This document shows, piece by piece, positions 20,774 to 62,277 of a stretch of DNA of 64,000 nucleotides (position 1 is its first letter; every line of letters starts with the position of its first letter). The position numbers and the translations under genes were made by a program. This DNA comes from Natronorubrum sulfidifaciens JCM 14089 (GTDB lineage Archaea; Halobacteriota; Halobacteria; Halobacteriales; Natrialbaceae). The notes under the pieces are model-generated. The model saw only the letters and a list, made by a program, of their open reading frames with translations, was not told where the DNA came from and made no database searches. The DNA lies in NCBI RefSeq assembly GCF_000337735.1, contig NZ_AOHX01000029.1, positions 51,659 to 115,658 on the forward strand, given 5' to 3'.

Positions 20774-20846
20774 GGGATCGTGGGTTAGCTTGGTATACTT
20801 CGGGCCTTGGGTGCCCGTGACCCCGGTTCAAATCCGGGCGATCCCA
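20774..20846 (+). tRNA. tRNA-Pro (anticodon TGG), integration target
   Basis: The acceptor GGGATCG (20774-20780) pairs with CGATCCC (20839-20845), and the discriminator is A at 20846. The anticodon stem CGGGC/GCCCG encloses loop CTTGGGT, anticodon TGG. It is intact and intron-free. Its 3' 24 bases plus one T are repeated at 62253-62277, so the gene was kept whole by the incoming element. Confidence 0.95.
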
Positions 20847-20847
20847 T
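20823..20847 (+). other. attL: left direct repeat of the integrated element
   Basis: These 25 bases start CCGGTTCAAATCC and end GATCCCAT, covering the T arm and 3' acceptor strand of tRNA-Pro. They are identical to 62253-62277. This is the classical outcome of tyrosine-integrase insertion into a tRNA 3' end. Confidence 0.92.
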
Positions 20848-30939: not shown

Positions 30940-30948
30940 GTAGGCGTC

Positions 30949-35755: not shown

Positions 35756-35795
35756 CCCTCGTGTGTATCTCGGGTGTGTAGTAGGTTTGTGTGTT

Positions 35796-40329: not shown

Positions 40330-40428
40330 TCATCCGAGTAATATAAGCACACAAAACTGGGATGCAGGCTCTGTTGAGGTCAACCACAGGAGACAAATTC
40401 TGACTCAATGCGGCCAATATGGGATATT

Positions 40429-40466: not shown

Positions 40467-40486
40467 AATAATTGGAGTAAGCTACA

Positions 40487-40909
40487 ATGAGCCAGAAAGA
40501 ACACACCAAGAAGAACGGAAATTGTCCGAATTGCGGCGAATCAGGCCATCAGAACTGGGAAAAGAACGAGGTGCTCCCACAAATCGAATGGACGTACATC
40601 TGCCAAAATTGCGGTAATGAAGCATACCTCTACGATAACAGCGAGCCGCCACAGCTTGGTCAGTCGTTTGTATGGGTACCTGTTTCGCACCACATGCGGA
40701 CCGTCCTCCAATTTCAGGACATTACTAGTACACAACCAGACCAAATACTATCCGACTATTACAGACAGGGATTAGAACGATCAGAAGCTATTGACTACTA
40801 TATCGTGGAGGACGAGGGAACAACACAGACCGAGTGGGCGGAACGCACTAACCGTAACCAGTCAACGGTCAGTGAGAATGTTTCCAAAGCCCGTGGAAAA
40901 TTAAAATAA
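40487..40909 (+). CDS. Zinc-ribbon plus HTH regulator
   Basis: The 140-residue protein has an N-terminal four-cysteine zinc ribbon (NCPNCGESG ... ICQNCGNEA) and a C-terminal HTH of sigma-region-4/TrfB style (TTQTEWAERTNRNQSTVSE, then NVSKARGKL). Lower GC than the neighbouring genes. It lies between the GmrSD gene and the DUF499 gene, with an inverted repeat at its promoter, so it is a good candidate regulator of the cluster and of itself. Confidence 0.6.
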   Translation: MSQKEHTKKNGNCPNCGESGHQNWEKNEVLPQIEWTYICQNCGNEAYLYDNSEPPQLGQSFVWVPVSHHMRTVLQFQDITSTQPDQILSDYYRQGLERSEAIDYYIVEDEGTTQTEWAERTNRNQSTVSENVSKARGKLK

Positions 40910-40995
40910 TAAGATTTGTTTTTGACCCTTCGTCTGAAGGTATGGAGAGATTTGTGTGGTGTATGAAGCATGGGATCACACCAGTTCCCCTTCCC

Positions 40996-43900
40996 TTACT
41001 TTTGGAAGCTAATCTCGACTTTCAGACTCGACGCCTCGTCGGGCATACGCTCGAACAAGTCCTGTACCTTTGTGTAGTCCTGCTCGGATCGGAGTGTCAG
41101 GCTCACTTGTGATCGCTCGATGTCTGCCGTTCCCTGAAGCGCGCCGGGTACGCCCTCTCGGTCCGGTAGCATGAACGTGACGTCGCCGTACTCTACGGTC
41201 CCGGTCTGATGATCTCGCCGCCACTTCTTGCGCATGGCGGCGACGTCGTCGCCGTTGTACTCGAACCGCCACGTCTCTGAACCGACATCGGGGATCCGGA
41301 ACGGATACCCCGGCACCCAATCGGATGCCTTCTCGGAGCCTGTCGGCCCGACGACGTACACCGGATCCTCCTCACGGCCGAGGTTCTGCAGTAGGAACGT
41401 CTGTACCATGTTCTCCGTAACGGTGCTGTCGAAACGATCGGCGACCTTGCTCACGGTGAACTGGTCACCGGTATCAAGGTCGTCTAGATAGTCTATAATC
41501 TGTTTGCCGATCCGGTCGGAGACTGTCGGAACGATCTTCACCGTCATCGGGTTCCGGTCGCCGAGAGCGTCCAAATACCGCCCGCCAGCTTCGAGCACGT
41601 ACTCGTCAATGAGGAATTCGTTCACTGCCTCGCGGGCAGCCGTCTCGGTTTCGTCCGGCGGAAGGAATACCGATTCGTCAGCACGAATCTCGCCGATTAT
41701 CGTTTCGAGATTTGCGTACCCCTCTGCCTCGATCGCCTCTTCAATACACTCGGCGAGATACGACCCGCCGACAGTTGTCGCACTCCCGACGTCTCGGAGT
41801 GTCGCGTCCGACTGCGGCTTATCGAGAATCTCGTTGCCCCGAACGACCACGTACTGATCCTCGCGGTTCAGCCGCCCGATAGCCCGCATCACGACATCGT
41901 GGCTGTCACCGTCGAGCCAGATCTCGCCATCCTCGACCAGTTCCAACTCGAAATCGCCGATATCGAGCACTGTCGTCCCGCTTCCGAACCGCTGGCGGAG
42001 TTCCTGTTCGACGTCGTCAACACCCCACACGTCCACGTCCTCCTTTCGGACCAGGACGGTGTCAAGCGAACTTCCGGAGAGGTCGTCACGGAAGCCGCCG
42101 GAGTCACGAGCTAACACTGGCTTCCCTTCGAGAGCTTCCACGGTTGCGTTCAACACGTCGTTCGCACTTCCGGGAATCGGGAGTTCCGGATCACGGAGGA
42201 ACTGCTCGTACACGTCCTCGATCGAGATCTCACCGCGACGCTCCATCAGGTCCGACACGATGGGCCACACGTGAGACTGCAGGTCGAAGGGATCAGCCGC
42301 TGCGGAGTCCGCTATGTTCGATGCATCGAGCTCCGGTCCATCGGAAACATAGACATCGAGGTCCATCGGTGCCACGAGATCAAACTCTTGGAGCAGGTTG
42401 TCTCCGTCTAAAACCTCCCCATAGAGCAGCTGCAGCTCTTCACGAAGCTCGCTTACCTCCTGATCTTTCATCGACTGAATTGACTCGCGGATCTCGTCAT
42501 CGAGGGACTCGTCGGCAAGGACTTGACGGGCACCTTCGATGTACCGTGCTTTATCGATGTAACGTGTCCCCGATTCAATTGCCTTGTCACCGGAGGGCTG
42601 TACAAACACGAGCGTGTTTCGCCACTCACGTCCACGGCTGTCGTTCGTGATGACGCGCTCAACCTCCTCCTGTGTCCACTGATCGTCCTTCACGACGACC
42701 TTGATGTCGCGGTCGTCCGGGACATCCCGGATATCGTCAGTTCGGAAGCCAACGGGAGACGCGTTCGACCCGAAGATGTCGGTGATAAAGTCGGCGGTTT
42801 CGGCCTTCGCCGATCGCTCGGAGACATCTACTGCGGCGTTCCGAATAAGTGCGTTCGGGTTCTGGCGATCCCGGATGGCATATTTCCCGTTCAGCTTGTG
42901 AAGGTGCCAGGCGACGCCGTGGAGTCGTTCGAGGTTGAGCACGACGTCGGAGACAAGGTCGCCTGTCTGGTACGCCCCCATCACGATTTCCGAGACCTCT
43001 GCGCCCTCACCCTCGCTCGGCTTCAGCGAGTAGAGGAGGATGGTGTTGAGAATGCGGCGACCGTGGGGGACATCGTCCTCATCCACCCGATTTTTGATGT
43101 CGCCGGTAGCAGCGTTCAGTCGTTCGTAGTTGATCTTGGAGAGCTCACCCTCGAACTCGATCCCATCGATATCCCCATGTGTGATCAGGTTTGTCTGATC
43201 CTGCATTTCGAGGAGGACCTTCGAGAAGAGGTAGATCATCCCACGCGTGTTCTGGTTCCCCTCGTCAGCGTAGTATCGCGTCTCAAGCGCGTCAAGGAGG
43301 ACAGGATGAAACGGGTAGAGATCGTGCATCTCCGAGAGGAGGTCGTCAGGGATGGTGACGTGGTCCGACTGGTCGTAGGCGTCGAAGTACCCGTTCACAA
43401 TCTCACGGGCAGCTGATTCGTCAGTGTCCTCAATCAGACGGTGGTGGAGAACTTCGCGTTTGTCCACCTGGTTGTTCATGTTGACCTCGACCGCCTGTTC
43501 CCGGTTCAAAATATCGTGGACCTCGGAGCCCTCACGGAGAACAGAGACGATGGTGTAGAGCTCTAAATCGGACAGTGCTGTCGATTCGAGCAGAGATTGG
43601 AGGAAGGCCTTGTTCGCGCTCTTGCGATCCCCTTGGAGCGTATCGAACCAGTCCTCAAGCTCGTCGACGAAGAACGCGACGGTGTCATCGCCGACGGCGT
43701 CCTGAATCGTCTGCATGTCCGGATAGCCGCCGGACTCGTACGTCCCGGGGTCGTAGTCGAGTGCCTCGAAGAACGGCTCCCAGAGGTACTCGTACTGTTC
43801 GTTCTGCATAGCGACCGTGATTGGGACTGCAGACTCCGGAAGCGATGATTCGAGCTCCTCGATTTCCTCGGTTGCCCACGAACCCGCAGCAACGGGATCA

Positions 43901-44202
43901 TCGAAACAGTGGTACAGCGCCACCATCTGGTGGGATTTCCCACTCCCATAGGGGCCGTAGAGGATGTGTGTTCCACGAGGATCATCACCGGTCAGCGAGT
44001 CACGGAGGATCGACAGGGCCTCTCGAAGCCCCTGAGTCATCAACGTGCGATCGAAGAAGAGTTCGGCGTCAGACTCGAACTCGTTCTCGTCATCCACGTT
44101 ATAGAGTTTTACCTGCCCGTCTATCTGTCCGTCCTCCCGAAGCTCACGGCTGAGGGTGACCGTGTCTTCGAGAGTCTTTGACAGGGTGTCTACTTCCGAC
44201 AT
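40996..44202 (-). CDS. DUF499 ATPase (BrxC/PglY-like)
   Basis: The 1068-residue AAA-type ATPase has Walker A GPYGSGKSH (83-91), Walker B AFFVDELEDW (176-185), and DUF499 blocks LYPFHPVLLDALETRY and GMIYLFSKVLLEM. The same family supplies BrxC/PglY in BREX and partners DUF1156 methylases in other defence loci. The C-terminal half is a divergent helical region without a nuclease motif that I can see. ATG 44202 (MSEVDTLSKTL) is chosen since the preceding frame is not family-like and a palindrome lies 53 bases upstream. It is divergent from the SNF2 gene at 44327. Confidence 0.82.
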   Translation of the reverse strand: MSEVDTLSKTLEDTVTLSRELREDGQIDGQVKLYNVDDENEFESDAELFFDRTLMTQGLREALSILRDSLTGDDPRGTHILYGPYGSGKSHQMVALYHCFDDPVAAGSWATEEIEELESSLPESAVPITVAMQNEQYEYLWEPFFEALDYDPGTYESGGYPDMQTIQDAVGDDTVAFFVDELEDWFDTLQGDRKSANKAFLQSLLESTALSDLELYTIVSVLREGSEVHDILNREQAVEVNMNNQVDKREVLHHRLIEDTDESAAREIVNGYFDAYDQSDHVTIPDDLLSEMHDLYPFHPVLLDALETRYYADEGNQNTRGMIYLFSKVLLEMQDQTNLITHGDIDGIEFEGELSKINYERLNAATGDIKNRVDEDDVPHGRRILNTILLYSLKPSEGEGAEVSEIVMGAYQTGDLVSDVVLNLERLHGVAWHLHKLNGKYAIRDRQNPNALIRNAAVDVSERSAKAETADFITDIFGSNASPVGFRTDDIRDVPDDRDIKVVVKDDQWTQEEVERVITNDSRGREWRNTLVFVQPSGDKAIESGTRYIDKARYIEGARQVLADESLDDEIRESIQSMKDQEVSELREELQLLYGEVLDGDNLLQEFDLVAPMDLDVYVSDGPELDASNIADSAAADPFDLQSHVWPIVSDLMERRGEISIEDVYEQFLRDPELPIPGSANDVLNATVEALEGKPVLARDSGGFRDDLSGSSLDTVLVRKEDVDVWGVDDVEQELRQRFGSGTTVLDIGDFELELVEDGEIWLDGDSHDVVMRAIGRLNREDQYVVVRGNEILDKPQSDATLRDVGSATTVGGSYLAECIEEAIEAEGYANLETIIGEIRADESVFLPPDETETAAREAVNEFLIDEYVLEAGGRYLDALGDRNPMTVKIVPTVSDRIGKQIIDYLDDLDTGDQFTVSKVADRFDSTVTENMVQTFLLQNLGREEDPVYVVGPTGSEKASDWVPGYPFRIPDVGSETWRFEYNGDDVAAMRKKWRRDHQTGTVEYGDVTFMLPDREGVPGALQGTADIERSQVSLTLRSEQDYTKVQDLFERMPDEASSLKVEISFQK

Positions 44203-44254
44203 TTGTTGATACGTATACTGCCTGTCACTGACCAAATAAACACTATGGTGCTCG

Positions 44255-44271
44255 GATGAGCATTGCTCATC
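44255..44271. promoter_or_regulatory. Perfect 17-bp palindrome in a divergent promoter
   Basis: GATGAGCA, one T, TGCTCATC, midway between the DUF499 ATPase (start 44202, minus) and the SNF2 helicase (start 44327, plus). A single bound dimer could control both directions. Confidence 0.65.
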
Positions 44272-44326
44272 ACAATGAAACAATCGCTACACAACATATT
44301 TGACGGTCAACTAACTCTCCAACTAC

Positions 44327-46078
44327 ATGAGCGACTTTGATCTCGTAGACATCGAGGTCACCCACGAGCCACCGGATAACGTTCTATCTGTAGATCCCGA
44401 TGAGACGAGCGAGGAGCATCTCCACACCGTTCAAGCCGTTCGGCTGAAAGCCGGCCAGCCTGACTCTGAACTCCGTTCTTTGAAGCAACTTGATGAGAAT
44501 TCGGTCAAGATGCTCGAACATCAGGTCGATGCAGCGTATCGGGCTCTGTTCGAGATGGACGGGAAGGCGTTACTCTCCGACGAGGTCGGTTTGGGGAAGA
44601 CGATCGAGGTCGGGATGATACTCAAAGAGATGCACTTCCGCGAGACCAACGATTCGGTCCTCATCTTGACGCCTGCCCAACTGGCCAAACAGTGGCAAGC
44701 GGAGCTCCGAGAGAAGTTCGGCTTAGAGTTTGTCTGCAACTACGACGACGAATTCCGCGGGTTTGACAGCCATGACTACATCATCGCCAGCATCGACACG
44801 GCCAAAAGCGATAGATACCGACAGGCGGTGCTCAGACGCGACTGGGACGTTCTTGTTCTCGATGAAGCCCATTACGTGAAGAACGAGGAGACGGATCGGT
44901 ACGAGCTGATCGACCACCTCTCGTACAACTATGCGTTCTTCCTTACGGCGACGCCGATACAGAACGAACTCACCGATCTCTACAATATTGTCTCGCTGCT
45001 TCGCCCGGGGCTGTTCGGAACACGTGACGTGTTTCACCAGTACTTCGTCAATAGCGACCAGGAAACCCTCGTCAACCGTAACGAGCTTCAGGACCGGCTG
45101 AACAAGGTCATGATCCGTAATCGGCGTGAAGACACGGATGTAGACTTCACCGATCGGCGGGTCGACACACGAAAGTTCGAGCCATCACCGGCAGAACGTG
45201 AGCTCTACCAGGCCGTATCCGATTATGTTAAGGGAGCCTACAGTCAGGATCAAGGGCAGAAACTGGTGTTGATGCTCCTTCAAAAGGAGGTAGTCAGTAG
45301 TCCTGAAGCGCTTGAGACGACGATCCGGAAGAGGCTCGATGACCAGTCCGAACTCACGCAGACGGAAGAGTTGGAGTCGATTTTGGACCTAATCAATAAC
45401 ATTGACACGGTTACCAAACAAGAGCGGCTGCTCGATATCGTTGAAGAGGCGCGTGAGAACGTCGAGAAAGGGCGTGTGATCGTCTTCACGCAGTTCCGCG
45501 CTACACAACGCCGAGTAGCTGAACGACTGGTGTCAGAAGGGTACACAGTCCACTCATTCCATGGTGGTCACTCTAGCCAAGAGAAAGAGGAGATCATCAA
45601 AAACTTCGAGGAGCAGGGAGGGATTCTCGTTTCGACAGACGCGATGTCCGAGGGACGTAATGCCCAGTTCTGCAATATTCTGGTGAACTGGGACCTTCCG
45701 TGGAACCCAATGCGCGTTGAACAGCGTATCGGTCGAATCCATCGAATCGGTCAGAACCGGCAGGTCTACGTGTTCAATATGGCGTTGACGGATACTGTCG
45801 AAGAGTACGTTCTTGAGCGTCTGTTCCACAAGATCGACATCTTCCAACAGAGCATCGGTGAGCTAAGCGAGATACTCACGAGGTTGGAGGAATCCGGAAA
45901 GAGCTTCGAGGACGAGATCTTTGAGCGGTTGGTCAACGCCGATTCCGAGGTTGATCTAGAGAACGACTTCGACGCGATGGCTGTCGATCTACAAGAGCAA
46001 CGTGACCTCGCTGAGAAATTGGAGGAGTTCAATAGCGGTGTCTTCGAGGGATTCGATCTGGGGGCCAGCGATGACTGA
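44327..46078 (+). CDS. SNF2/RapA-like helicase
   Basis: The 583-residue compact SF2 motor has SDEVGLGKTIEVG (84-96), LVLDEAHYVKN (DEAH), FLTATPIQNELTDLYNI, then VIVFTQFRATQRRVAERL, STDAMSEGRNAQ and EQRIGRIHRIGQ. It is close to the RapA/DrmD style of translocases. The last 60 residues are a charged coiled coil. Its stop overlaps the next start by 8 bases (ATGACTGA), so the two proteins are co-produced and probably form one complex. Confidence 0.88.
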   Translation: MSDFDLVDIEVTHEPPDNVLSVDPDETSEEHLHTVQAVRLKAGQPDSELRSLKQLDENSVKMLEHQVDAAYRALFEMDGKALLSDEVGLGKTIEVGMILKEMHFRETNDSVLILTPAQLAKQWQAELREKFGLEFVCNYDDEFRGFDSHDYIIASIDTAKSDRYRQAVLRRDWDVLVLDEAHYVKNEETDRYELIDHLSYNYAFFLTATPIQNELTDLYNIVSLLRPGLFGTRDVFHQYFVNSDQETLVNRNELQDRLNKVMIRNRREDTDVDFTDRRVDTRKFEPSPAERELYQAVSDYVKGAYSQDQGQKLVLMLLQKEVVSSPEALETTIRKRLDDQSELTQTEELESILDLINNIDTVTKQERLLDIVEEARENVEKGRVIVFTQFRATQRRVAERLVSEGYTVHSFHGGHSSQEKEEIIKNFEEQGGILVSTDAMSEGRNAQFCNILVNWDLPWNPMRVEQRIGRIHRIGQNRQVYVFNMALTDTVEEYVLERLFHKIDIFQQSIGELSEILTRLEESGKSFEDEIFERLVNADSEVDLENDFDAMAVDLQEQRDLAEKLEEFNSGVFEGFDLGASDD

Positions 46079-47228
46079 CGCCGCCGTACCGGTGACCCAG
46101 TCCGCAGTTGAGAATTTCACAGCGAGGTATCTCCGATCTCTCGGTTGCCAGGTCGAAATACGAGACAACGAGTGGCAGGTGACTATTCCGGAGGGTGTGG
46201 AAACAGATCTACCGAAAGGCGAACACGCTCTAGTCTGTGGTACCGCCGAAGATCTCGACGAGTCGTACGAGCAACTCCATCCTGAAAGCTCGTTCTTCCA
46301 ATCAGTCCTCGACGACGCAAGCGACCGTGCACCTCTCGGGGGCACCAGGATTGACGCGACTGGCACGGACATTATTGTGCCGGACTGGCTACAGGAGAGT
46401 CCGATCCCAGTATCGGACATCGACTTCACACCCTACTACGATCGAAGCGCACTGGTCGTTCTCTTCCGGGTGTCTGTCGAGACCGTGAGCGAGTATCAAC
46501 AGGAGTTCCTCCGAAGCATCGGTGTCGATGTTCGCTCCAAGGAGATCCTGCCTCACATTGACGAGACGTTTCTAACCTTGACGCAGTCGGAAACTGCTAT
46601 TGTCCCGTCGAGAGATATTGCGGTCAAACCCGAACAGGTAGAGCAACTGGTCGATGCATCTCGGAAAACCCTTCTCTCAGACATACAGCCACAGATCGAT
46701 AAGATCCATCAGGGGGCATCTCGGGCTGCTGACGCCGAACTTGAAGAGTACCGCCAGTTACAACGACAGCGAGAAGAGGAACTCGAAACAAAGATCACTC
46801 ACCTTCGGTCAAGGATTGACGATCTCAACAAGTCGATCGACGACAAGAATCAGACGGAACGAGTTGAGGCACTGAAAGAGCGCCGAGAATGCAAATCGAA
46901 ACTCCAAGAGGTTGAAACCGACCTCAATGAATTACGTCGCCGACGTGAACAAGGATACCCGGATCAACAGCGCGAAATTCGTGACCGACACGGATTAGAA
47001 GTGGTCGTTACTCCCGTCACCGTCACCGAGATTGAGTACGAGCGTGGCGATGCTGCATTCGAATTAACGGATTGCGATTTGACGAGAATATTGACAGTCG
47101 GATATGGTAGCGGGGTTGGTGTGACGGAAGCGGTTGACTGCGACGGCTGTGGGCGATCTCTTTCAGGTGAGAATCCACTTGGAGCGATTGCGAATGGCGT
47201 AAGATGTACAGTATGTAGGGATAGCTGA
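46071..47228 (+). CDS. Coiled-coil zinc protein paired with the SNF2 helicase
   Basis: The 385-residue protein is not a recognised family. N-terminal alpha/beta region (residues 1-190), a long charged coiled coil (about 195-290: QLQRQREEELETKITHLR), and a C-terminal domain ending in CDGCGRSL...RCTVC, a four-cysteine zinc finger. Its ATG 46071 overlaps the helicase stop. The layout resembles the accessory and C-terminal parts of RapA-like helicases split into a separate chain. Start by translational coupling; the ORF upstream extension is ignored. Confidence 0.65.
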   Translation: MTDAAVPVTQSAVENFTARYLRSLGCQVEIRDNEWQVTIPEGVETDLPKGEHALVCGTAEDLDESYEQLHPESSFFQSVLDDASDRAPLGGTRIDATGTDIIVPDWLQESPIPVSDIDFTPYYDRSALVVLFRVSVETVSEYQQEFLRSIGVDVRSKEILPHIDETFLTLTQSETAIVPSRDIAVKPEQVEQLVDASRKTLLSDIQPQIDKIHQGASRAADAELEEYRQLQRQREEELETKITHLRSRIDDLNKSIDDKNQTERVEALKERRECKSKLQEVETDLNELRRRREQGYPDQQREIRDRHGLEVVVTPVTVTEIEYERGDAAFELTDCDLTRILTVGYGSGVGVTEAVDCDGCGRSLSGENPLGAIANGVRCTVCRDS

Positions 47229-48407: not shown

Positions 48408-48897
48408 TTTAAAACTGTAGGATCTGTGACTACATAGTATTTTCTCAAAGCAGATGCTAACTAGATAGCTGTACTTACCGCACAGGGTGCTAAGCCTATC
48501 ATGTTCTAAGGGTTTCAACAGAGCCACACCCCTCAGTGTAAGTGGATCAGCATCATGAATGCCCTTTGGAGGGGTGTTACCTTCAGAGTGGTTGGTAAAA
48601 GTGTAGTCGAGTTAGTGCCACATCAGACCTGAACTGGTATAAATAACCGATAGACGCGACAAACACAAATCTAGCGATTCACGATGGAAGCACTACTAGT
48701 TCTGGCTGATGGATCTGAAGTATTCAAGCAGGTGCTAAAGAAGGCACACGAGCAAGGAATATTTCCCCGCCAGAACATGCCACCCAGTCGGCGTGTCTTG
48801 GTTAGCTACATGTATTGCGCCGGTTGATCGTTCCGGCAGATCGAGCCGTTCGTTGATTTTACGAACGTATAAGGGAGCTACTCCCACGTCGACAAGC
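48408..48897. other. Intergenic region with a TATA box
   Basis: AT-rich stretch between the HEPN-like gene (minus) and the exonuclease-like gene (plus). GGTATAAATAACC (about 48635-48647) is a good TATA box for rightward transcription, 37 bases before ATG 48684. A 47-codon ORF (48684-48827) follows it. Confidence 0.5.
48684..48827 (+). CDS. Possible 47-residue protein
   Basis: The ORF starts MEALLVLADGSEVFKQVLKK and ends at TGA 48825. It follows a TATA box at a distance suited to a short leader. No family is recognised and the ORF may be a gene remnant. Confidence 0.3.
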   Translation: MEALLVLADGSEVFKQVLKKAHEQGIFPRQNMPPSRRVLVSYMYCAG

Positions 48898-49569
48898 ATG
48901 CGGTATACTAACCGGATAAAACAGACTGTTGCCGATCCGTCTCCTGCCGGAGAGGGTGGCGAAATCGCTCTCGATATAGAAGCAATCAACATCGTTGAGA
49001 AACCAGATCTCAACTTCGACGACGCGTCTCACTGGTCCGTGTTCTGTGTTTCACTCGCACATCGACCAGAAGGTTCCAATGCTGTCGATACTCGTGTGTT
49101 GTGGCGACAAGGTCCCACAGTTTGTGATGAGCTTGAATTGATTGACCGAGTTACTGATTGGATCCGCGATCGGTCACCGGAGTTGCTCCTCACGTACAAC
49201 GGCAAATCGTACGCCCTGCCGATTCTGCGCCATCGGGCGTCCGTTACTAGCAAGGAGTGCCCGGGAAGCCACGTTGTAGAGGCAGATTTGGATATGCTGC
49301 TCGACTCTATCCGTCATGAGGATCTGTTCCCGAGTGTACGTGAACGATATAACCGAAACGTCTCACTCGAATCTGCACTCAAGGATAACGGAATCGAGAC
49401 TCCGACAGTAGAACTTGATGGACGAGAGGTGTCGGGGGAGGACATGCCCGTGCTGGGGCTTAGGATCCTTCGTGATGAGGCAACGGATGAAGAACTCAAA
49501 GCGGTGGCGGAGTACGCAAAATCAGATGTAAAGCAGCTGGTCACACTACGTGATTCGTTGAGCGAGTAA
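48898..49569 (+). CDS. DEDD (PolB-type) 3'-5' exonuclease-like protein
   Basis: The 223-residue RNase H-fold protein: ALDIEAINI gives the D-x-E of motif Exo I, LLTYNGKSYALPILRHR resembles Exo II (N-x3-D replaced by N-x-K-x-Y-ALP), and EYAKSDVKQL gives the final Y-x3-D of Exo III. It shares VSGEDM and the same order of blocks with the gene at 52735. Predicted to degrade single-stranded DNA or RNA ends; the altered Exo II leaves activity uncertain. ATG 48898 precedes the fold directly. Confidence 0.65.
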   Translation: MRYTNRIKQTVADPSPAGEGGEIALDIEAINIVEKPDLNFDDASHWSVFCVSLAHRPEGSNAVDTRVLWRQGPTVCDELELIDRVTDWIRDRSPELLLTYNGKSYALPILRHRASVTSKECPGSHVVEADLDMLLDSIRHEDLFPSVRERYNRNVSLESALKDNGIETPTVELDGREVSGEDMPVLGLRILRDEATDEELKAVAEYAKSDVKQLVTLRDSLSE

Positions 49570-52734: not shown

Positions 52735-53373
52735 ATGTCTCAAGAACAGCGTTTCGCGCTCGATATCGAAACAATACCGACGTGTGACAATCCGGATTTC
52801 GGCGATCCTTCAAATTGGAGTCCATTCGCAGTCGTTCTCGCGCATGAATGGGGTGATACTGCGGACGTTTCCGTGCTCTTCCGAAACGGCGATTCACTCG
52901 AATCTGAAGCCAGGTTATACACTCGTTCGCTCAATTGGGTTGCTACGCGTCTTGCCGCGGAATCCGTCGGTATACTCACGTACAATGGCGCGGAATATGA
53001 TTTGCCGATCCTCCGTCACAGGTGCGAGACCCTCGACCGTGAGCTCGGAACGTCGCTCTTTGAACGTCTTGAATCACTCGAACAAAGGGCTGAGCACATC
53101 GATTTACTGCAAATGGTGATAGCTCATCAAGGTCACAGGATGTCGATCGACGATGTTCTCGCCATGCTCATGATAGACTATGACGTCCCGCGTTGGCCGG
53201 ACGGCCGGAAAGTCTCGGGGGAAGACATGCTCGATATTGGTCCCCGAATCATCGCACAAGACATCGATCCTGACGTGCTCAATGCTGCGCGGCGATACGC
53301 CACGAGCGATGTCGCACCCCTATTCGACGTGTATGATGCGTTGTTACGGCGTAGGGGTATCGTTGAGGACTAA
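52735..53373 (+). CDS. DEDD (PolB-type) 3'-5' exonuclease-like protein, second copy
   Basis: The 212-residue protein has FALDIETIPT (Exo I D-x-E), ILTYNGAEYDLPILRHR (Exo II, with the N and D of N-x3-D kept) and RRYATSDVAPLF (Exo III Y-x3-D). It is more canonical than the copy at 48898 and shares its KVSGEDM block. Predicted nuclease of the DNA polymerase B exonuclease superfamily, typical in mobile elements. ATG 52735 begins the fold. Confidence 0.75.
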   Translation: MSQEQRFALDIETIPTCDNPDFGDPSNWSPFAVVLAHEWGDTADVSVLFRNGDSLESEARLYTRSLNWVATRLAAESVGILTYNGAEYDLPILRHRCETLDRELGTSLFERLESLEQRAEHIDLLQMVIAHQGHRMSIDDVLAMLMIDYDVPRWPDGRKVSGEDMLDIGPRIIAQDIDPDVLNAARRYATSDVAPLFDVYDALLRRRGIVED

Positions 53374-53596: not shown

Positions 53597-54238
53597 TTAA
53601 TCCGCGACGCGGACCCCGGCGTCGGAAGCGGGATTGACAACCCAGTTCTCCCCGAACGCCCACGGTTGAAGCGTGGTTTGAGCCGGGTGTTGCGCCGCCT
53701 GTTCTTTCCCTGTCGGTTTGTTCGGATCCCGCCACCTCTCCGTCGTGAACCGAGGGTGTAAATCATCGCGCTGCAGGTCCTCCACAGGCACTGGTTCCCC
53801 GTAGAGTGATTCCTGTACTGACCACCCAATGTGGTTTCGAGGGGCTTCCACGCGCGAGTCACCGGGTTTCTGTCGTGGAACGTCGGCGTACAGTTCTAAC
53901 GTGAGTTGCCCGGTCGCTTCCACACCGATCGGTTCATCGTCTCCTGCGCGTTCGATGACGTGTATCCACAGTTTCTCCGACGTTACCCAGTGACCGATTA
54001 CACGATCGGATTTGTGGATGAGGCCGCGTGCCTTAAGCTTGTGTTTCAAGCCTTCTCGAAGCCCGGATTCGCCCCACGTCCACGCCGCTGGTGGCGGGGC
54101 AAGGTGACGCGTCAAGTTGCTCCAATGCGCTGTTACAAGCGCTTTGCTGCGCTTCGAGAGTTTACCCGCTTGCGTTCGTGTTGCCGTCTTTGGTGTTGTT
54201 GACAATTCAATCACCCCCGGTTGCGCGGAGACGCCCAT
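53597..54238 (-). CDS. Hypothetical protein downstream of the primase fusion
   Basis: A 213-residue basic protein, starting MGVSAQPGVIELSTTPKTAT at ATG 54238, which overlaps the end of the primase gene by 32 bases in another frame. RGLIHKSDRVIGHWVTSEKL and later GQLTLELYADVPR suggest an alpha/beta fold. No family named. Co-transcribed with the primase operon. Confidence 0.5.
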   Translation of the reverse strand: MGVSAQPGVIELSTTPKTATRTQAGKLSKRSKALVTAHWSNLTRHLAPPPAAWTWGESGLREGLKHKLKARGLIHKSDRVIGHWVTSEKLWIHVIERAGDDEPIGVEATGQLTLELYADVPRQKPGDSRVEAPRNHIGWSVQESLYGEPVPVEDLQRDDLHPRFTTERWRDPNKPTGKEQAAQHPAQTTLQPWAFGENWVVNPASDAGVRVAD

Positions 54239-57200
54239 CCTGAGGCTCGTACACGTCGCCTTTGCGACGGAGTTTCTCCATAGCATGGTCGAATTTGTCC
54301 ATGTCGACCCCTTCCTCTTTAGCGCGGTCTCGAACCTCTTCAACCGGTGCGCCGGCGTCGTACTTCTCCTCGACTGTACTGACCGCGTTCTTAACCGCCC
54401 CGACGCGTTCTCGCTGGGATTCCGTCATAAGCCCCGTGTACTCACCGCCGTCCGTTCTCGCGGCGTCCTGTGACTCCTGACCGGTTTCTGACGCGGACTC
54501 GATCACAGCTTGCCCATCCTCAGCCTCAGCAGGAGGGATATAACCGACACCGCGCTGAACCGGGGTGATCGTCGTCCCCTTATCGAGGATAATCTGCGGT
54601 GACCCGTCATAACCAGTGACCTCTGCATTCTTGACACGCACAGTCTCTTCCTCACACAGGTGACTGATTCCGTCAGGTTCGTCGCCCAATCCGTAAGCGA
54701 ATACCACCACATCTACACGACCGGTCACATCAGTCAACGACCCTGATTCGATTGGACCGCCAGCTTGAGCAACCTCATCGGGTGTGGCGCTCCAATCGAC
54801 AACTTCCGCCGTCACCGTCACGTACCCTTCATCCTCATCGAGACTCCCGATAGGAGTCGCACCGCCACCACCGCCGTCACTGTCGCTGTTGACAATTTCA
54901 CCGTCATCGTCTTCGTCGTCAACGTCAACGAACGATTCCCGTGCGAACCCTGCAATCTCCTCAACACCGCGATCCATGTCGATCCCAGTACACCGACTAA
55001 TCCCTTGCGTGGGCTGCTTTGTCACCGTCACGAACGTGCCTTCATCCTCCAACTGCTCGAACCGCGTCTTGTAGTCTGACGCGGACTGTAAGAGGTCCTC
55101 GTTCAAGTCGTGGTCACGCGTGAACTTCGACACTTTGTCGAACGCCCTGGTGACATTCACACGCAGTTCCTCATTCGCCTTCCCCTCGTGAACAACACGG
55201 TAATCCGTGGCGTCTTCAAGATACCCGGCAGCAGCTGCACGCGACACTAACGACAGGAATTGGTGTTCGTGCGGTTGCCGACCGTCCCCGTCCACGTCCG
55301 CGACGAGTTTCAACGCGGCGTCTAAGTCGTCTGCTGATGGGAGCTTCGACAGATCTGCACCGACAGTCTGAGCGAACGACACAACTCGACGGTGTCCGAA
55401 CACAACTGTCTGCAGGCCCTGCAACTCTGTGTCGCCGAGATCAAGGTCATGCTCCGCGGCGAACTCAGCAACCTTTTCACGGGCATCGTACCACGCTGCA
55501 CGGAACTCGTCATCCGACATGTCCGCAACCCACGCGTAGTACGCAACTGCGAAGTCCTGCAACTCGAACTCCGCTTCAGGGAACACAACGTTCCCCGCGT
55601 CGTCTGTCGTCACATCACCTACCAGGTCTTTGAACGCATCACGCGCCGGATGACCGTCCTGAGTCGGCTTCGTCGTCACGTTCACCATAACCGACCGGCG
55701 GCGTTCCGCATCGTTCGTAATCTCAGACTCACCACTCACCACAATTGGAGAGCGCAGGTGCCAGTCGTCCGTTCCCATCGATTGGTTCCCACGCGGCTCA
55801 ACACCGCCCGTAGCAGCCTTCTTGAACCACGTGTGCCAGCGATCCATGATGTAATCTGGGGTGGCTTCAGGGCGGTACTCGTCGAACCACACAGGCACAC
55901 CGCGGCTTGACGTAAACCCGGTGAGAGTTGCGAATTTGGATGCATTCACCGCCAGCGGCTCGTTCGACATCCCCCACATCTGATTGAACGCGGCGAGGGT
56001 GGCAGTCTTGCCGGACCCGGACCGGCCGAACACTCCGAGCGGGTTGAACGTCGCTGTCTGCTCGAAAATGAGGGGGCGGAACGGTGCAGCGGCGAACCAC
56101 GACAGGATGGGTGTGATTCGCTCCGGGAGGCGGGACTGTGAAGCGAGTTCCAACATCCGCGCGACATCGTCGTCATCAACCTCGTCGTTTTCGTCCGGTT
56201 CAGCACTGAATGACCGGATTGTGGCGTTCGTCTGCGAGCCCTGGTCCACGTACGTGTGCCCGGGGTTATCTTCCCCCCCGTCCGGTCCAATCGAACCCGA
56301 CGGAACAACGAACTCCTCACCGTCGTCTGACAGACCCATCTCGTACTGTCCCTCACGAACCGGGACGTCTCGCGCAGCGATGTACTGCCGAACCATGTCC
56401 ATCACGTCCGCATCTGACCGGTCGGACTCGATGACCGTGCTGTACATCTGCGATAACACGGTGTCCTTGAACCGCCGCGCGTCGTTGAACACTCGCGGTT
56501 CAACTTTAATCTCGAATTCCGGTTCGTTCGGTTCAGACGGTGCCACCTTCACGGTGCTCGACCGGCCTTCGTCCTCACCGGGAAGTTCAAGAATAGAATC
56601 AACGTCGAACTCAAAGTTAAATATGGGTGTCGTGGTCAACCACACTATTCCGTGAATCTTCGACAACTTACCAGCATGGTTGACAACACTTCCCTTGTCG
56701 GCACGGATGTCCCATAATTCGCGGTGCCGGTCCATCGTATCAGTCCCTGCAGAGACGCGGGCAGACACCTCGTCAGCGTATTCCTTGTAATCCTCTTCAG
56801 TGAGGCGCGCGACCGCGCGAGCTAACGTCTGCATCTCATCTTTACCCGGTGAATCATCGTCTTCACCGCGGTCTTCCGCCAAGCCCCACTCGTCGATGAA
56901 AGCGCGCACATCACGCAATGCTTTCCGCTCTTCAACGTTCGGCCACTCCCATCCGTTCGCCTCCGCGACAGACAGTAGCGTTCCGACCGTAACGCGGTCG
57001 TCGTCGTCCTCGGCTTCGACTGATTCGAACCCGGATTTCACGATGTTGAACGCGTGCCGTTCAGTATCCTCGTCGAACGCGTCTGGCGCGGTCTTCGACC
57101 ATTCTACGATCGTGTCGACGGCATCTTCACTTTCCGCGCCGGTCCGCGCATAGTAGTCAGCGATGGCGAATCCGACGTCACGCCACCCCAACCCTCCATA

Positions 57201-58055
57201 CTCATCGTCTGCAGAGTACTTGAGACTTGCAGGGACGTGTTCAAGCGCTTCCTTGACATCGTCTTCGAGGAGCCACTCGTCGCCGTCCGGCTCGTACCCC
57301 GACTCCCCGTCACCGTTACCGAACCCACGGGTCGGGTTGTACTCGACCGCCGGTTCACCGGCCAATTGCACCCTGCAACACACGTCCTCAACGGCCAACT
57401 TGTTACGGATCGATTCGTTGTTGACAACTTCGTAACTCCCGCCAACACCCGCGATGTCAGCAGGTGCAACAACGTGATGACTGACCGCGCTCCCACGGAC
57501 GTCGATGTCGAATTCGAGATCCTCGTGAATCTCAAAGTCAGACTCTTTGAACGCGCCCTTCTGCGCGGTTACCGTGTGCCACACGTGATGCCCGCCGCTC
57601 TGCGATCGTACGATGAGCGTCCCTTCGTTGACAGTCAAGTTCTTCACGGCTGCTTCCGGATCGTCCGCTTTGTGCGTATCGAGGTCGAAAATGAGGAGCT
57701 CGCGCGACATCCGCGGGTCCTCTTCGCGGTATCCGACGACTCCCCACCATTCGTGGGGAGACTTGACAACTTCGTCATGCGTGTACACGCACTCAGCGTC
57801 TTCGAAGTCCTGGTCGTACCCGCCCCAGGACTCTGCCGGGCGCTTGTCGTCCTCGCCGCGCAGCTTGATGTACCATAACCGCTCGTAGTCAACCGCTAAA
57901 TCAACCGGTTCTTTTTCTTCTTCGTGATCCGGGAGGTCAACGCCACCATCTGTTAACAGTCGCCGACCACCAAAATCGTCGATTCGCATCTGCTCGTCAT
58001 CCCGTTCCGTTCCCTGTTCATCACCGTCACCGCCCGTACCGTTTGCTCGTGTCAT
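54207..58055 (-). CDS. Primase-polymerase / AAA helicase / OB-fold / winged-helix fusion
   Basis: The 1282-residue replication protein of the element. N-terminal AEP primase-polymerase: LLIFDLDTH (catalytic D124, D126) and QSGGHHVWH (sxH). Middle: AAA helicase of superfamily-3/D5 or DUF927 style with Walker A GRSGSGKT (about 677-684) and Walker B VPVWFDEYRPE. About 1075-1180: an OB fold (YVTVTAEVVDWSA ... LTDVTGRVDVVVFAYG), like RPA/SSB. C-terminus about 1215-1282: winged helix (VEEVRDRAKEEGVDMDKFDHAM) like the MCM tail. Likely primes and unwinds at the element origin. Overlaps the upstream gene by 4 bases (ATGA). Confidence 0.8.
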   Translation of the reverse strand: MTRANGTGGDGDEQGTERDDEQMRIDDFGGRRLLTDGGVDLPDHEEEKEPVDLAVDYERLWYIKLRGEDDKRPAESWGGYDQDFEDAECVYTHDEVVKSPHEWWGVVGYREEDPRMSRELLIFDLDTHKADDPEAAVKNLTVNEGTLIVRSQSGGHHVWHTVTAQKGAFKESDFEIHEDLEFDIDVRGSAVSHHVVAPADIAGVGGSYEVVNNESIRNKLAVEDVCCRVQLAGEPAVEYNPTRGFGNGDGESGYEPDGDEWLLEDDVKEALEHVPASLKYSADDEYGGLGWRDVGFAIADYYARTGAESEDAVDTIVEWSKTAPDAFDEDTERHAFNIVKSGFESVEAEDDDDRVTVGTLLSVAEANGWEWPNVEERKALRDVRAFIDEWGLAEDRGEDDDSPGKDEMQTLARAVARLTEEDYKEYADEVSARVSAGTDTMDRHRELWDIRADKGSVVNHAGKLSKIHGIVWLTTTPIFNFEFDVDSILELPGEDEGRSSTVKVAPSEPNEPEFEIKVEPRVFNDARRFKDTVLSQMYSTVIESDRSDADVMDMVRQYIAARDVPVREGQYEMGLSDDGEEFVVPSGSIGPDGGEDNPGHTYVDQGSQTNATIRSFSAEPDENDEVDDDDVARMLELASQSRLPERITPILSWFAAAPFRPLIFEQTATFNPLGVFGRSGSGKTATLAAFNQMWGMSNEPLAVNASKFATLTGFTSSRGVPVWFDEYRPEATPDYIMDRWHTWFKKAATGGVEPRGNQSMGTDDWHLRSPIVVSGESEITNDAERRRSVMVNVTTKPTQDGHPARDAFKDLVGDVTTDDAGNVVFPEAEFELQDFAVAYYAWVADMSDDEFRAAWYDAREKVAEFAAEHDLDLGDTELQGLQTVVFGHRRVVSFAQTVGADLSKLPSADDLDAALKLVADVDGDGRQPHEHQFLSLVSRAAAAGYLEDATDYRVVHEGKANEELRVNVTRAFDKVSKFTRDHDLNEDLLQSASDYKTRFEQLEDEGTFVTVTKQPTQGISRCTGIDMDRGVEEIAGFARESFVDVDDEDDDGEIVNSDSDGGGGGATPIGSLDEDEGYVTVTAEVVDWSATPDEVAQAGGPIESGSLTDVTGRVDVVVFAYGLGDEPDGISHLCEEETVRVKNAEVTGYDGSPQIILDKGTTITPVQRGVGYIPPAEAEDGQAVIESASETGQESQDAARTDGGEYTGLMTESQRERVGAVKNAVSTVEEKYDAGAPVEEVRDRAKEEGVDMDKFDHAMEKLRRKGDVYEPQDGRLRATGGD

Positions 58056-59008
58056 CGCGGCACCTCCGGGGAGAACCCGGCAACATCAGCAGTATCAAGC
58101 GCGAAATCACCATCGTACAGGTCATCTTGTGCGTGAACGGGACCGCAGTAACCCTGCACCGGCACTTCACAGTCTTCAAGTCTCTTATCGCACCCGTCCA
58201 TAGCGCACACACCAGTGGTGATTGGTGCATCGAAGCCGTCAACGGTGGGTCGGGGTTCAAAGGCTGCCAGATCATATCGAGTCAATGATCTTGTGAACCC
58301 TCTTCGACTGATTTCAACGTCGTCACCGTCAACTGACTCAACGGTCCACGGGTCATATTTTGCCCCTTGAAACCGCATAATCACCTTGTCGCCGACATCC
58401 ACCTCGCCAATACCGAAACCACCGTCCGTCACGAGTTGCTTCTCACTTCCGCCGCCGTCAACCTCGTCCTGACCGGTGATCTCATCCATCAAGTCTTCGA
58501 TGGTCGCCGGGTTCATCTGCGGCGGTGCGCTCGCCGGAACGTGTTCCACCGGCGCGGTGACAGGGATCTCGTCACCCTCCTCGACGTCTTCGAGGCAGGG
58601 GAGCTTTACCAGGTCAGTCCCGTTACCAGCTTCGAACCCGTACCCGGGGAGATCGCCCCAACCGAACTCTCTTACGTCGTCGATATCACGGGTCGTGATA
58701 CGACCTGTTATCCATTTCCGCGCTATTTCTCGCACCTCGCCCGTCGTCACGGTGTCCACCGTACGCCCGCCATCGGTGTCGAGTCCTAACGCCTCACGTC
58801 CACGGCCCGACCGTGCGTACGCGGGTTTATCCGAGCATAATGGGACCGTGATATCGATCCCGTCCGACCGTGCACTGAGGTACAGGTGCAGTAGGTGGTT
58901 GCGCTCGCATGTGATGTGGTGGGTTGCTTCGATTACTTCGCCGTTCAGTTCGACTGTCGCTGGTTTCGTCTGCCCATCTTTATTATGGGTCGTATCGTTG
59001 TTTATCAT
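58052..59008 (-). CDS. Hypothetical protein heading the primase operon
   Basis: A 318-residue acidic protein. Beta-rich centre (VDVGDKVIMRFQGAKYDPWTV looks like a small SH3-like barrel) and a C-terminal pair CAMDGCDKRL...CEVPVQGYCGPVH, a probable zinc knuckle with four Cys/His ligands. It is translated first in the operon, coupled to the primase. May be a DNA-binding accessory. Confidence 0.55.
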   Translation of the reverse strand: MINNDTTHNKDGQTKPATVELNGEVIEATHHITCERNHLLHLYLSARSDGIDITVPLCSDKPAYARSGRGREALGLDTDGGRTVDTVTTGEVREIARKWITGRITTRDIDDVREFGWGDLPGYGFEAGNGTDLVKLPCLEDVEEGDEIPVTAPVEHVPASAPPQMNPATIEDLMDEITGQDEVDGGGSEKQLVTDGGFGIGEVDVGDKVIMRFQGAKYDPWTVESVDGDDVEISRRGFTRSLTRYDLAAFEPRPTVDGFDAPITTGVCAMDGCDKRLEDCEVPVQGYCGPVHAQDDLYDGDFALDTADVAGFSPEVPR

Positions 59009-59995
59009 GTTGGGCTACCATTGCACACCCAACGGACAACGCGTTACACCGCGTTCGTCCACTTTTCCGATCACCAATTGATCGAATAGGGACGAATGTC
59101 CGTCGAGCTTGACTAATCATATCTAAGGATCACGTATAAAGCCTTGCACCACCCTTCCAAATACTCACACTGAATCCCAATTACAAACCCACACCTGAAC
59201 ACTCAGAACGCCGACTTCAACCCCTCTAAAACCGTATTTCACTCCCGACAGAGTGGTTCGAATTACACTAACCACTGTTGCCTTCATGCATACTATTAAG
59301 TCGGCTATCGCGCCACCTGTCAACCGTCCACGTCGATTCTCACTATTTCATTGTTGAGGTCGCCGCCGGACTCGACAGGCACCGACGCGGGCACCGCCAA
59401 CCGCACCGGTCGGGACCGAACCTCGCTGCAGCAAACCAGGCAAAACACGGGGCCACTGCTCCAACACCCTCACATTCCACCATTTTAACACCGTTTTACA
59501 ATCTGAACAGTCCAAATGTAAAACGATATTACGAGGTAGAGAGCCCAACGGGAGGGGTTAGGGTGCGATTTTACAGATTTAACAGATTTAACAGTATCTC
59601 TCAGGTCAATGTGTTCTACCCAACCACCACGCACCCAACTGATTGTCACTCCCTCCTGAGAGAACGCGTAAAATCAGTAAAATTTGTAAAATCCCCTTTC
59701 AGCCCCGTTGCCGTGTTGCGATTTTTTCGTTTTACATCCGCTGTTTTTGCTGCGTAAAACGACGTGTGATGCGGGTGTGACTTCACCTCTACTGTGGGGG
59801 AGGGGTGTCCCGAGTGTAACTGAAGGGGGAGAGTCGAAGGGAGAGGGGCATCGATCCATCAACACGAGGAAGTGAGAACGAATAGGTTAAACGGTCGTGC
59901 TATGAGCACGATTGGTGGATTGCCAACACGACCGTGTTGCTAACGGGTGTGTTGACAAGTTCAAGGCGACCGTGTGAAAAGAAGAGCGTTTCTGC
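59009..59995. other. Long non-coding region, candidate origin
   Basis: 987 bp upstream of the primase operon without a convincing gene. Its right half is repeat-rich (see 59494-59759). A 159-codon open frame here (59278-59757) is judged an artefact of the repeats. Confidence 0.5.
59494..59759. repeat. GTAAAA/TTTTAC iterons, candidate replication origin
   Basis: Eight copies of GTAAAA or its complement in 266 bases: 59494, 59518, 59569, 59668, 59677, 59686, 59730 and 59754. The copies at 59668, 59677 and 59686 are spaced exactly 9 bases apart as GTAAAATxx units. AGATTTAAC is also repeated in tandem (59575 and 59584). AT-rich iterons next to a primase-helicase gene fit a plasmid-type origin. 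Confidence 0.6.
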
Positions 59996-60712
59996 TCACG
60001 CCTCAACCGGTTCTATCGCATCGAGACGGTACAGTTCACGGCGTTCAAGCGCATTATCAATCGTCTTCGGGACGCATTCGAGGCGTCTCGCGGCAGCCGC
60101 CCGCGACATTTCCCCGTTTTCGACTCTGAACAGTGTTTGACGGACTTTCGAGTAGTTGTCGTCTGCTCGTAACATTCCGTTCTCGACTCTACACCCAACG
60201 GGTGGCCTGCCCCCTTTGTGAACGTGACCTGTCAAGGGCTCGTTCGGATCCGTTTTCGCGTCGTTCGTGTCTTTGATCGCTTCTATCGCCCGTTTCGCAG
60301 CTGGGGATAACCCACCAGTCTTCCCGGATTTGACTCTTAACCCTGCGTCGATGACGTGGACGGTTACACCTCGTTTCATCAGTATCCGCATGGGTTCCGC
60401 GGGCGGGGCGTCTCGTTCCGTGACCGTGATTAGGTGCCCGTCTTCGCGCGGGTGATCGGCGACGGATCCGGGTTTCTCGGCGTCTTCGATGCGGTCGCCG
60501 GGCGGCATATCGATCCCGATTTTAAGATTCGCGTCATCGCTTTCGTGTTGCGAGACGGTGTGTCCTTGCTGGTGTTTTCGTCTCGCTTCTCGGATCTTCG
60601 AGTGCGGGAAGTCGTGTCCGAGTTCGTCGCTGATGTATTCCACCGCGTCTTCGATTCGTGCGTTTATCGTGTCTTTTCCTTCTGCGATCGTGTATATTGC
60701 AATTCGTCTCAT
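59996..60712 (-). CDS. Serine-recombinase-like protein lacking the catalytic residues
   Basis: A 238-residue protein with the layout of haloarchaeal recombinases: N-terminal strand IAIYTIAEGKD, a middle MKRGVTVHVIDAGLRVKSG (like the strand-loop of resolvases), and GGRPPVGCRVENGML followed by SRAAAARRLECVPKTIDNAL, a Hin-type HTH. At the place of Y-x-R-x-S it has Y-T-I-A, so nucleophile Ser and partner Arg are gone. It may bind DNA only, as a regulator. ATG 60712. Confidence 0.6.
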   Translation of the reverse strand: MRRIAIYTIAEGKDTINARIEDAVEYISDELGHDFPHSKIREARRKHQQGHTVSQHESDDANLKIGIDMPPGDRIEDAEKPGSVADHPREDGHLITVTERDAPPAEPMRILMKRGVTVHVIDAGLRVKSGKTGGLSPAAKRAIEAIKDTNDAKTDPNEPLTGHVHKGGRPPVGCRVENGMLRADDNYSKVRQTLFRVENGEMSRAAAARRLECVPKTIDNALERRELYRLDAIEPVEA

Positions 60713-61110: not shown

Positions 61111-62112
61111 TCAGAAGGGAAGGTGTTCGCGGCGTTGCTGCATTTTACTGGTCTCGTCCCTCGCATCGTAGTGCTCATCCAATACGTCCTCACTGACGTC
61201 CATGCGGTCGCTGATGACCCGGGCGGGGGTGTCTTCGCTCAGGTAGTGAGTGATCGCCCCTCGCCGAACGGCGTGCGGTGCCTCGGAACTCGGGCACTTG
61301 TACGGAGTTCGTGACTTCATTCCCTCGCACTCGTCGGGGATGCGGTCGTGGGGGCATTCGATGCCGTACGTGCACGGGCGGGTGAGCCGGTACATTTCTT
61401 GCCGCATTGTACTTTTCTTGATACGTCCGAAATCGGTCGTCAACAGTGGTTTGCGTCCGTTGTCCTCGACGTCGTGCCGGTGCGTGTCGATGTAATCTTG
61501 GAGTACTTGCGACAGTCCCGGGGATATCGAGACCGTTCTCTCGCCTCTTTCAGCGTTTTTGAGCGTGGTGTCGGTATGTGGGCGGTGTCGAAGCTCGATG
61601 TACTGAGCGTCTGTGTGCGTGTCTGTGAGATCGATGCTTTGCGCCGCGCCCATCCGCATCCCGGTCTCGAATAGCAGTTTCAAGAATGCGTGGTGTAATT
61701 TCGCGTATTCGTACTTCGAGTGGTGTGCGAGTATCGTGTTCGCGCGGTCGGCAGTGACGATCGCGTCTCTCGTGCTATCACCCTTGGATACTGTGGGGGA
61801 GACGGTTGACTCGGCAACACCGTCTGCAACCGCATCGATTTGCTCGCAGAATCGTAAGAACACTCGCAGCGTGTCCATGTAGCCTTTGAGCGTCGTCGCC
61901 TTCACGCGTTGCTGCTCGTGGATCTTGTACCGATGCGTGGTTCGCCCGGTCACACTGTTCATGTCCTCGACCCCCTGGGTTTCGCACCATTCGAGGAACC
62001 CCTTCAAACGGTATTGGTGCGATTGATGGGATTGCCTGCTCAGGTCAGTCTCCCGGTCTTTGAGGTATAGTTCGACTGCTTCTTCCGGATTCATCGAGTC
62101 TGTGTCACTCAT
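61111..62112 (-). CDS. Tyrosine recombinase (element integrase)
   Basis: The 333-residue XerC/D- or phage-type integrase has N-terminal SAM-like domain (VELYLKDRETDLSRQSHQSH, LKGYMDTLRVFLRFCEQ) and the catalytic core. Arg is in LFETGMRMGAAQSI, H-x-x-R in SEAPHAVRRGA, and the nucleophile Tyr in LDEHYDARDE. A CTYGIECPHDRIPDEC insert with cysteines is common in haloarchaeal integrases. Its position, start 20 bases from a tRNA-like sequence and 140 from attR, makes it the enzyme that inserted the element. Confidence 0.92.
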   Translation of the reverse strand: MSDTDSMNPEEAVELYLKDRETDLSRQSHQSHQYRLKGFLEWCETQGVEDMNSVTGRTTHRYKIHEQQRVKATTLKGYMDTLRVFLRFCEQIDAVADGVAESTVSPTVSKGDSTRDAIVTADRANTILAHHSKYEYAKLHHAFLKLLFETGMRMGAAQSIDLTDTHTDAQYIELRHRPHTDTTLKNAERGERTVSISPGLSQVLQDYIDTHRHDVEDNGRKPLLTTDFGRIKKSTMRQEMYRLTRPCTYGIECPHDRIPDECEGMKSRTPYKCPSSEAPHAVRRGAITHYLSEDTPARVISDRMDVSEDVLDEHYDARDETSKMQQRREHLPF

Positions 62113-62132: not shown

Positions 62133-62252
62133 GGGATCGTCGGTTCGCGTGAGGGCCTTGGGCCTTTGCTACCGTGACCCCGTGTTCGGCGAACGTAGTG
62201 AGCCGAACGCCTGTCTGGCGCGTGAAATGCGGTTTATTTCACGCGCCAGACT
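62133..62252 (+). repeat. Degenerate tRNA-Pro-like copy with two hairpins
   Basis: GGGATCGT (62133), GGTT, GGGCCTTGGG (62153-62162) and CCGTGACCCCG (62172-62182) follow the order of the intact tRNA-Pro (20774, then 20802-20811 and 20815-20825). Then 70 foreign bases occur before the T arm at 62253. They hold two perfect hairpins: GTTCGGC/GCCGAAC (62184-62190, 62202-62208) and a 16-bp stem (62213-62228, 62236-62251). The copy is not functional as a tRNA. Confidence 0.65.
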
Positions 62253-62277
62253 CCGGTTCAAATCCGGGCGATCCCAT
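62253..62277 (+). other. attR: right direct repeat of the integrated element
   Basis: Identical over 25 bases to 20823-20847. This is the displaced original 3' end of tRNA-Pro. Chromosomal sequence resumes at 62278. Confidence 0.92.

Follow-up and report, generated by a model that had tools for sequence, protein, structure and literature searches.

SaPIBov1 Rep and SCCmec Cch, the DUF927, MCM-like helicases of staphylococcal islands, are encoded on mobile islands that also carry a recombinase. SaPI Rep binds the iterons adjoining rep through its C-terminal domain, Cch2 binds origins likewise, and staphylococcal pattern-1 SCC encodes its SSB separately, as a protein with a different fold (PMC7581432); Cch is an active helicase (PMC5862659, citing Mir-Sanchis 2016). 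A second set of related proteins, the PrimQH and all3500 fusions of the PrimPol-PV1 supergroup, is likewise encoded by mobile elements and joins primase, PriCT, a P-loop ATPase (AAA+, DUF927 included) and a C-terminal winged helix (wH) in this order (PMC5862659); the term OB-fold is absent from the main text of that study. In NrS-1 and SaPI5, too, primase and helicase form a single mobile-element protein, and Halorubrum virus CGphi46 encodes a DNA primase (HALG_00022) that proves to be related to the protein described below. For many archaeal mobile elements the mode of replication is, to our knowledge, unexplained.

The DNA analysed here is a stretch of 64,000 nt of contig NZ_AOHX01000029.1 from Natronorubrum sulfidifaciens JCM 14089 (the window), which contains on its minus strand an open frame with an ATG start (54207..58055) for a 1282-aa primase-helicase with about 25 relatives; residues are numbered with the ATG Met as 1. 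We consider it likely that replication of a 41.4-kb element inserted at tRNA-Pro is initiated by this protein: the helicase core would bind iterons, the Prim-Pol domain would prime, the OB fold would hold single-stranded DNA and the wH may dock on a partner. All domains named in an earlier note on this sequence are found, namely a predicted Prim-Pol primase, an AAA+ helicase, an OB fold of the RPA/SSB kind and a C-terminal wH that is genuinely of the MCM type, and PriCT-2 is added as a fifth, as judged from Pfam, NCBIfam, invariant motifs and a dedicated HMM (2e-24); the helicase, OB fold and wH are additionally supported by an AlphaFold2 (AF2) model.

The Prim-Pol (AEP) primase domain is assigned to about residues 52-257 (57285..57902, minus strand). 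Pfam matches residues 69-214 to PF09250 (E=1.7e-5, 25.8 bits against a cut-off of 22.8), and the motif residues D124 and D126, SQxGGxH (S151, Q152, G154, G155 and H157; SQSGGHH at 151-157 in the window protein) and D185 do not vary among six relatives. Profile, DxD, sxH and the third acidic motif are all present, which places the domain among the AEP Prim-Pol primases by sequence; the fold of the AF2 model for residues 1-480 is unusable (pLDDT 34). Comparison of the window Prim-Pol with another Prim-Pol group by hhalign gives 95%. Compared with NrS-1 and SaPI5, the window Prim-Pol belongs to a different group and the core is nearer to Cch and SaPIBov1 Rep; group-B primases found among the relatives match 7ola at 7e-17. 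The adjoining PriCT-2 domain, residues 269-364 (56964..57251, minus strand), is predicted from a PF08707 match (E=6e-4) of 20.5 bits against a cut-off of 22, and PriCT-2 reaches 42 bits in the Halovenus rubra relative (L031).

Residues from about 480 to 1041 (54933..56618, minus strand) form a predicted Cch/SaPI-Rep-type (DUF927-like) AAA+ helicase core with a C-terminal domain. The AF2 model of residues 480-1282, built from 13 sequences with the loci of the genome search left out, has a mean pLDDT of 77, with the helicase, OB and wH parts mostly at 70-95, and its best Foldseek matches are SCCmec Cch, a Sulfolobus single-stranded DNA-binding protein and archaeal OB domains. In VIA-align the core superimposes on SaPIBov1 Rep (8tch) with Z 22.2 over 439 residues and on Cch (5dgk) with Z 21.9 over 458, whereas the AAA+ parts of MCM proteins reach only Z 13-15; the modelled core thus has the Cch/SaPIBov1-Rep fold, AAA+ plus C-terminal domain, and aligns less well to haloarchaeal MCM. 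Walker A (GRSGSGKT, 677-684), Walker B (D725/E726), G775/E776 and R786/R787 are invariant in an alignment of 21 proteins. Pfam DUF927 (PF06048) is matched by 7 of 21 relatives (best 6.5e-9), the window protein falling below the threshold; Pfam and NCBIfam give no MCM match outside the wH, hence none over the whole length or in the AAA+ part, and a phmmer search of the PDB with the whole protein returned chance PPR matches only. The core ends in a C-terminal domain of about residues 925-1041 (54933..55283, minus strand). It is covered by the alignment to SaPIBov1 Rep and Cch and, by analogy with SaPI Rep and Cch2, would be the iteron-binding domain. In contrast to its staphylococcal counterparts, the window protein comes from an archaeal host and fuses primase, PriCT-2, OB fold and MCM-type wH to this core.

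The predicted RPA/SSB-like OB fold comprises about residues 1070-1170 (54546..54848, minus strand). In NCBIfam, about 1066-1167 align with the model of an ssDNA-binding protein of haloarchaea (E=5.5e-4). OB structures of the RPA/SSB type are hit at 9e-8 to 2e-5 by a profile made from the tails of the family, and the modelled domain resembles SsoSSB (1o7i) and the archaeal OB domains 2k75 and 2ken. The OB fold sits between helicase and wH, and in this the protein differs from the PrimQH and all3500 fusions, as it does in the haloarchaeal MCM type of its wH. The structure prediction that had been proposed as a check on the C-terminal part shows both modules, an SsoSSB-like OB fold and a wH with elements in the order H-H-H-E-E.

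The wH occupies about residues 1210-1279 (54219..54428, minus strand), and NCBIfam matches 1209-1276 to MCM. An HMM built from 38 haloarchaeal MCM wHs scores 2e-24 with the window protein, 7e-26 with the Natronoglomus and 5e-23 with the Halovenus relative, followed by two further members at 6e-11 and 9e-10; the remaining members score weakly or not at all, and only five distinct family members have a clear MCM-type wH by this measure. Pfam PF21120 gives 18.4 bits on the window wH against a cut-off of 26.1, and a profile of the tail only matches an MCM wH structure at 2e-5. The window wH is 49% identical to that of the host MCM and up to 57% identical to those of other haloarchaeal MCMs, and in a wH tree, based on 68 columns only, the three best family wHs branch within those of haloarchaeal MCMs. 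A haloarchaeal MCM is the probable source from which the wH was captured. Recent capture from the neighbouring host mcm was considered and rejected, given 49% identity against up to 57% for other haloarchaeal MCMs. We also looked for extra conservation on one face of the wH, with an unconvincing result.

Relatives, counted beyond the ubiquitous match of the wH to MCM, occur in about 22 of 292 haloarchaeal genomes surveyed (the window's own excluded), and genome contigs contain further ones in a nanohaloarchaeal MAG, on a 12.9-kb plasmid and in Halorubrum virus CGphi46. The core at about 480-1041 is common to all family members, the N-terminal parts fall into four groups, and the tail is missing, a wH only, or OB fold plus wH. 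In the core tree the window and Halovenus rubra proteins are sisters (100/100, 65% core identity) with primases of different groups; given the well-supported branches, the group-B primase label must have changed at least four times. An OB-like tail is found in 16 of 26 sampled proteins, that of CGphi46 included, one of the 16 being split over two frames, and three proteins (L043, L048 and L056) end directly after the core. In view of the primase swaps and variable tails the protein is modular, with OB fold plus wH as the common longer form of the tail. The core is also split over two frames in L046/L061 and in L049, possibly by frameshift or decay; L049 keeps a GTTAAATC iteron array despite its split core.

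The CGphi46 primase is 31% identical to the window protein over residues 248-1154 and shares the OB-like tail, but its primase module belongs to another subfamily (NrS-1/SaPI5 type) and its end is not clearly an MCM-type wH. For the CGphi46-type tail, a comparison of tail profiles A5 and A8 was discounted as partly circular, two proteins being common to both. The search for the same architecture in haloarchaeal plasmids and viruses that had been suggested thus yields relatives in both, the viral one lacking a clear counterpart of the last domain. In viral contigs, neither the full-length protein nor its primase part found relatives, whereas the family alignment as query retrieved 44 distant proteins, mainly through the AAA+ part. 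These proteins (L064-L107, mostly about 840 aa) are 21-34% identical in the AAA+ stretch (about 580-795) and may belong to a phage lineage of this helicase family.

The expectation that the added OB fold and wH would be unusual is only partly borne out, as OB-like tails are common within the family and primase-PriCT-helicase-wH fusions of mobile elements were already known (PMC5862659). An OB fold inside such a fusion is apparently new, as far as we found, and so are a wH of probable MCM origin and the recurring archaeal iteron array described below: a search of the open-access literature, which was not exhaustive, returned no description of any of the three.

The element itself spans about 41.4 kb, as delimited by a 25-bp exact repeat and an unoccupied site in another genome of the genus, where left flank, tRNA-Pro and right flank are contiguous. 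attL (20823..20847, plus strand) is the 3' end of tRNA-Pro(TGG) (20774-20846), and attR (62253..62277, plus strand) is a 25-bp copy of it. The attR copy is adjoined by a tyrosine recombinase (integrase) gene (61111..62112, minus strand; PF00589 E=5.9e-9), and integrases near several relatives are 44-48% identical to it. The initiator start is overlapped by 4 nt by the gene of a 318-aa protein without family match (58052..59008, minus strand), no homologue of which was found near the relatives, and farther upstream lies a 238-aa protein with a weak HTH match (59996..60712, minus strand). No element-encoded Orc1/Cdc6 was seen among the larger frames of 20.8-62.3 kb.

A candidate origin with iterons GTAAAAnn is located at 59492..59761, in the noncoding region 59009-59995. 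Eight of the element's 18 GTAAAA copies fall within these 270 bp, a number reached in none of 20,000 dinucleotide simulations. Three units with a 9-bp period form a minus-strand array (59567-59592) and three a plus-strand array of the same period (59668-59693), the two diverging from a 75-bp spacer, and single outer iterons at 59492, 59518, 59728 and 59754 flank the arrays. Two features speak against the proposed role: the spacer, with 52% GC against 56% for the window, is hardly AT-rich, and the array lies 1.4 kb upstream of the initiator gene with the 318-aa gene between. An array near the gene is nevertheless a trait shared with SaPI, where iterons lie beside it (PMC7581432), and in CGphi46 an iteron array directly follows the gene downstream.

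Similar clusters recur across the family. When 7-mer over-representation was taken over roughly 20-kb loci, the distance from the top cluster to the helicase gene was at most 300 bp at 13 of the 25 family loci and at most 1.7 kb at 20 of them, with binomial values of 7e-13 and 4e-10 that are approximate, as they assume uniform positions and independent loci. This position statistic is the fairer test, since the cluster motifs were picked after inspection and per-locus counts and geometry are descriptive. Tandem units in the relatives have a 9-bp period, minus strand to the left and plus strand to the right, and the innermost units flank a spacer of 68-101 bp in 19 of 22 clusters examined; judged by eye, many spacers contain an imperfect GGGGTGTA/TACACCCC-like inverted repeat. 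The motif varies between loci (GTAAAATC, the window type; GTAACATC, the CGphi46 type; GTCAAATC; GAAGTGWAC; and others). The GTAAAATC iteron is common to the window and L031 loci, which have sister cores and different primases, and arrays are also found at the tail-less L048 and L056. As the motif follows the core and not the primase, and tail-less members have arrays, the simplest view is that the core itself reads the iterons; L036 and L037, whose cores are sisters but whose iterons differ, are a counter-example to a strict link. From the arrays beside tail-less relatives, the OB fold and wH look like accessories and not the basis of initiation. The further claim that the protein would be nearly self-sufficient is plausible as regards initiation, and stronger support for it comes from the recurrent array near the gene and the match of the core to staphylococcal-island initiator helicases, both missed by the earlier note.

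Taken together, these features suggest a mechanism in which the element would excise before the initiator acts. Hexamers of the Cch/SaPI-Rep-like core would then bind the divergent 9-bp iteron arrays (59492-59761) via the core C-terminal domain. They would open the 75-bp spacer that separates the arrays and proceed outward as helicases, while the Prim-Pol domain would lay primers and the OB fold would hold the exposed single strand. Computation shows the domains, the structural kinship of the core, the integration site and the iteron clusters with their geometry; kinship and geometry favour loading of core hexamers at the divergent arrays, whereas we infer iteron binding by the core, unwinding, priming, single-strand holding and the docking partner. 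The archaeal MCM wH contacts the ATPase domain of Orc1/Cdc6 in Sulfolobus (PMC5333045), on which basis the C-terminal wH may dock on proteins that normally bind the host MCM, Orc1/Cdc6 being the best documented, and would thereby bring host replication proteins to the element. With few family members having a clear MCM-type wH, such docking cannot be a general requirement of the family.

Recognition of the iterons could instead fall to the wH tail, given that the wH is a common dsDNA-binding fold and that the C-terminal wH has been suggested to recognise the origin in PrimQH-type and PolpTN2 primases (PMC5862659). We regard this as quite unlikely, as clusters are retained by L043, L048, L056 or members without a recognisable MCM-type wH, several of them with a very similar GTAAAA/GTGTAAA motif, and GTAAAA arrays accompany both L036, which has an MCM-type wH, and the tail-less L048. 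The cluster might also be an operator for the 238-aa regulator, the protein replicating the element from elsewhere. The array does sit between this HTH-like gene and the initiator operon, and weak homologues of the gene occur near L031 and L053; among the relatives, however, the helicase gene has its cluster sometimes upstream and often downstream, where no regulator homologue was found, and the spaced divergent geometry recurs, which makes the operator function unlikely.

A role in repair, defence or interference, with an element that only integrates and is inherited passively, would suit the many restriction and defence-like genes of the element, and a Thermus mobile-element primase-polymerase was reported to be dispensable for replication of its element and to act against environmental DNA (PMC7693054). 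The structural kinship of the core with initiators, the iteron arrays across the family and the relatives in a tailed-virus genome and on the 12.9-kb plasmid render this role very unlikely. A last alternative leaves the iteron-binding initiator intact and competes with the docking step only: the wH may be an ordinary DNA-binding or ATPase-regulating domain without host recruitment. This has nearly an even chance, considering that in S. solfataricus MCM the wH regulates both the ATPase and the helicase allosterically (PMC11686378) and that only some family members keep an MCM-type wH; against it, in the AF2 model the OB fold and linkers of low confidence, which are probably flexible, lie between the wH and the helicase ring, and the wH appears to have been acquired from MCM, not evolved in place.

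Our preferred reading, an initiator whose core recognises the divergent arrays, can be extended, tentatively and with considerable doubt, to the proposal that haloarchaeal elements and viruses share SaPI/Cch-type self-loading replicons, with a modular initiator, exchangeable primases and a core that reads a divergent 9-bp iteron origin, and that one branch mimics MCM through its captured wH, diverting Orc1/Cdc6 or other replisome proteins. About 25 loci, one isolated virus included, allow the protein family, a candidate origin and a likely recognition module to be studied side by side, and the system is directly testable in cultivable haloarchaea. The natural primase swaps on one helicase core are ready-made controls, and an MCM wH on a foreign initiator offers a simple test of replisome recruitment by archaeal elements.

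Several further observations concern the surroundings. The host mcm, apparently intein-containing (1172 aa), runs from 62819 past 64000 (G000:C29:114477-117992) and begins about 540 bp right of attR; tRNA-Pro is near mcm in several relatives too, and the proximity of mcm to attR is explained by this recurrent neighbourhood. A perfect 16-bp inverted repeat (62213-62251) directly left of attR is possibly a recombinase or regulator site. At L033, the strongest repeat cluster, 15 ACCGTCG copies within 300 bp at 17911, is far from the helicase gene. The cargo at 27947-47228 resembles a defence island, with a McrBC-like pair, SNF2 helicases, a DUF1156 methyltransferase, a DUF262-like protein matching HEC-06/Orf5 models and a DUF499 ATPase, with matches to HmaB and HmaC models for the methyltransferase and for the DUF499 protein. 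Finally, two RNase H-like exonuclease genes (48793-49569 and 52735-53373) are both related to a single gene near L053.
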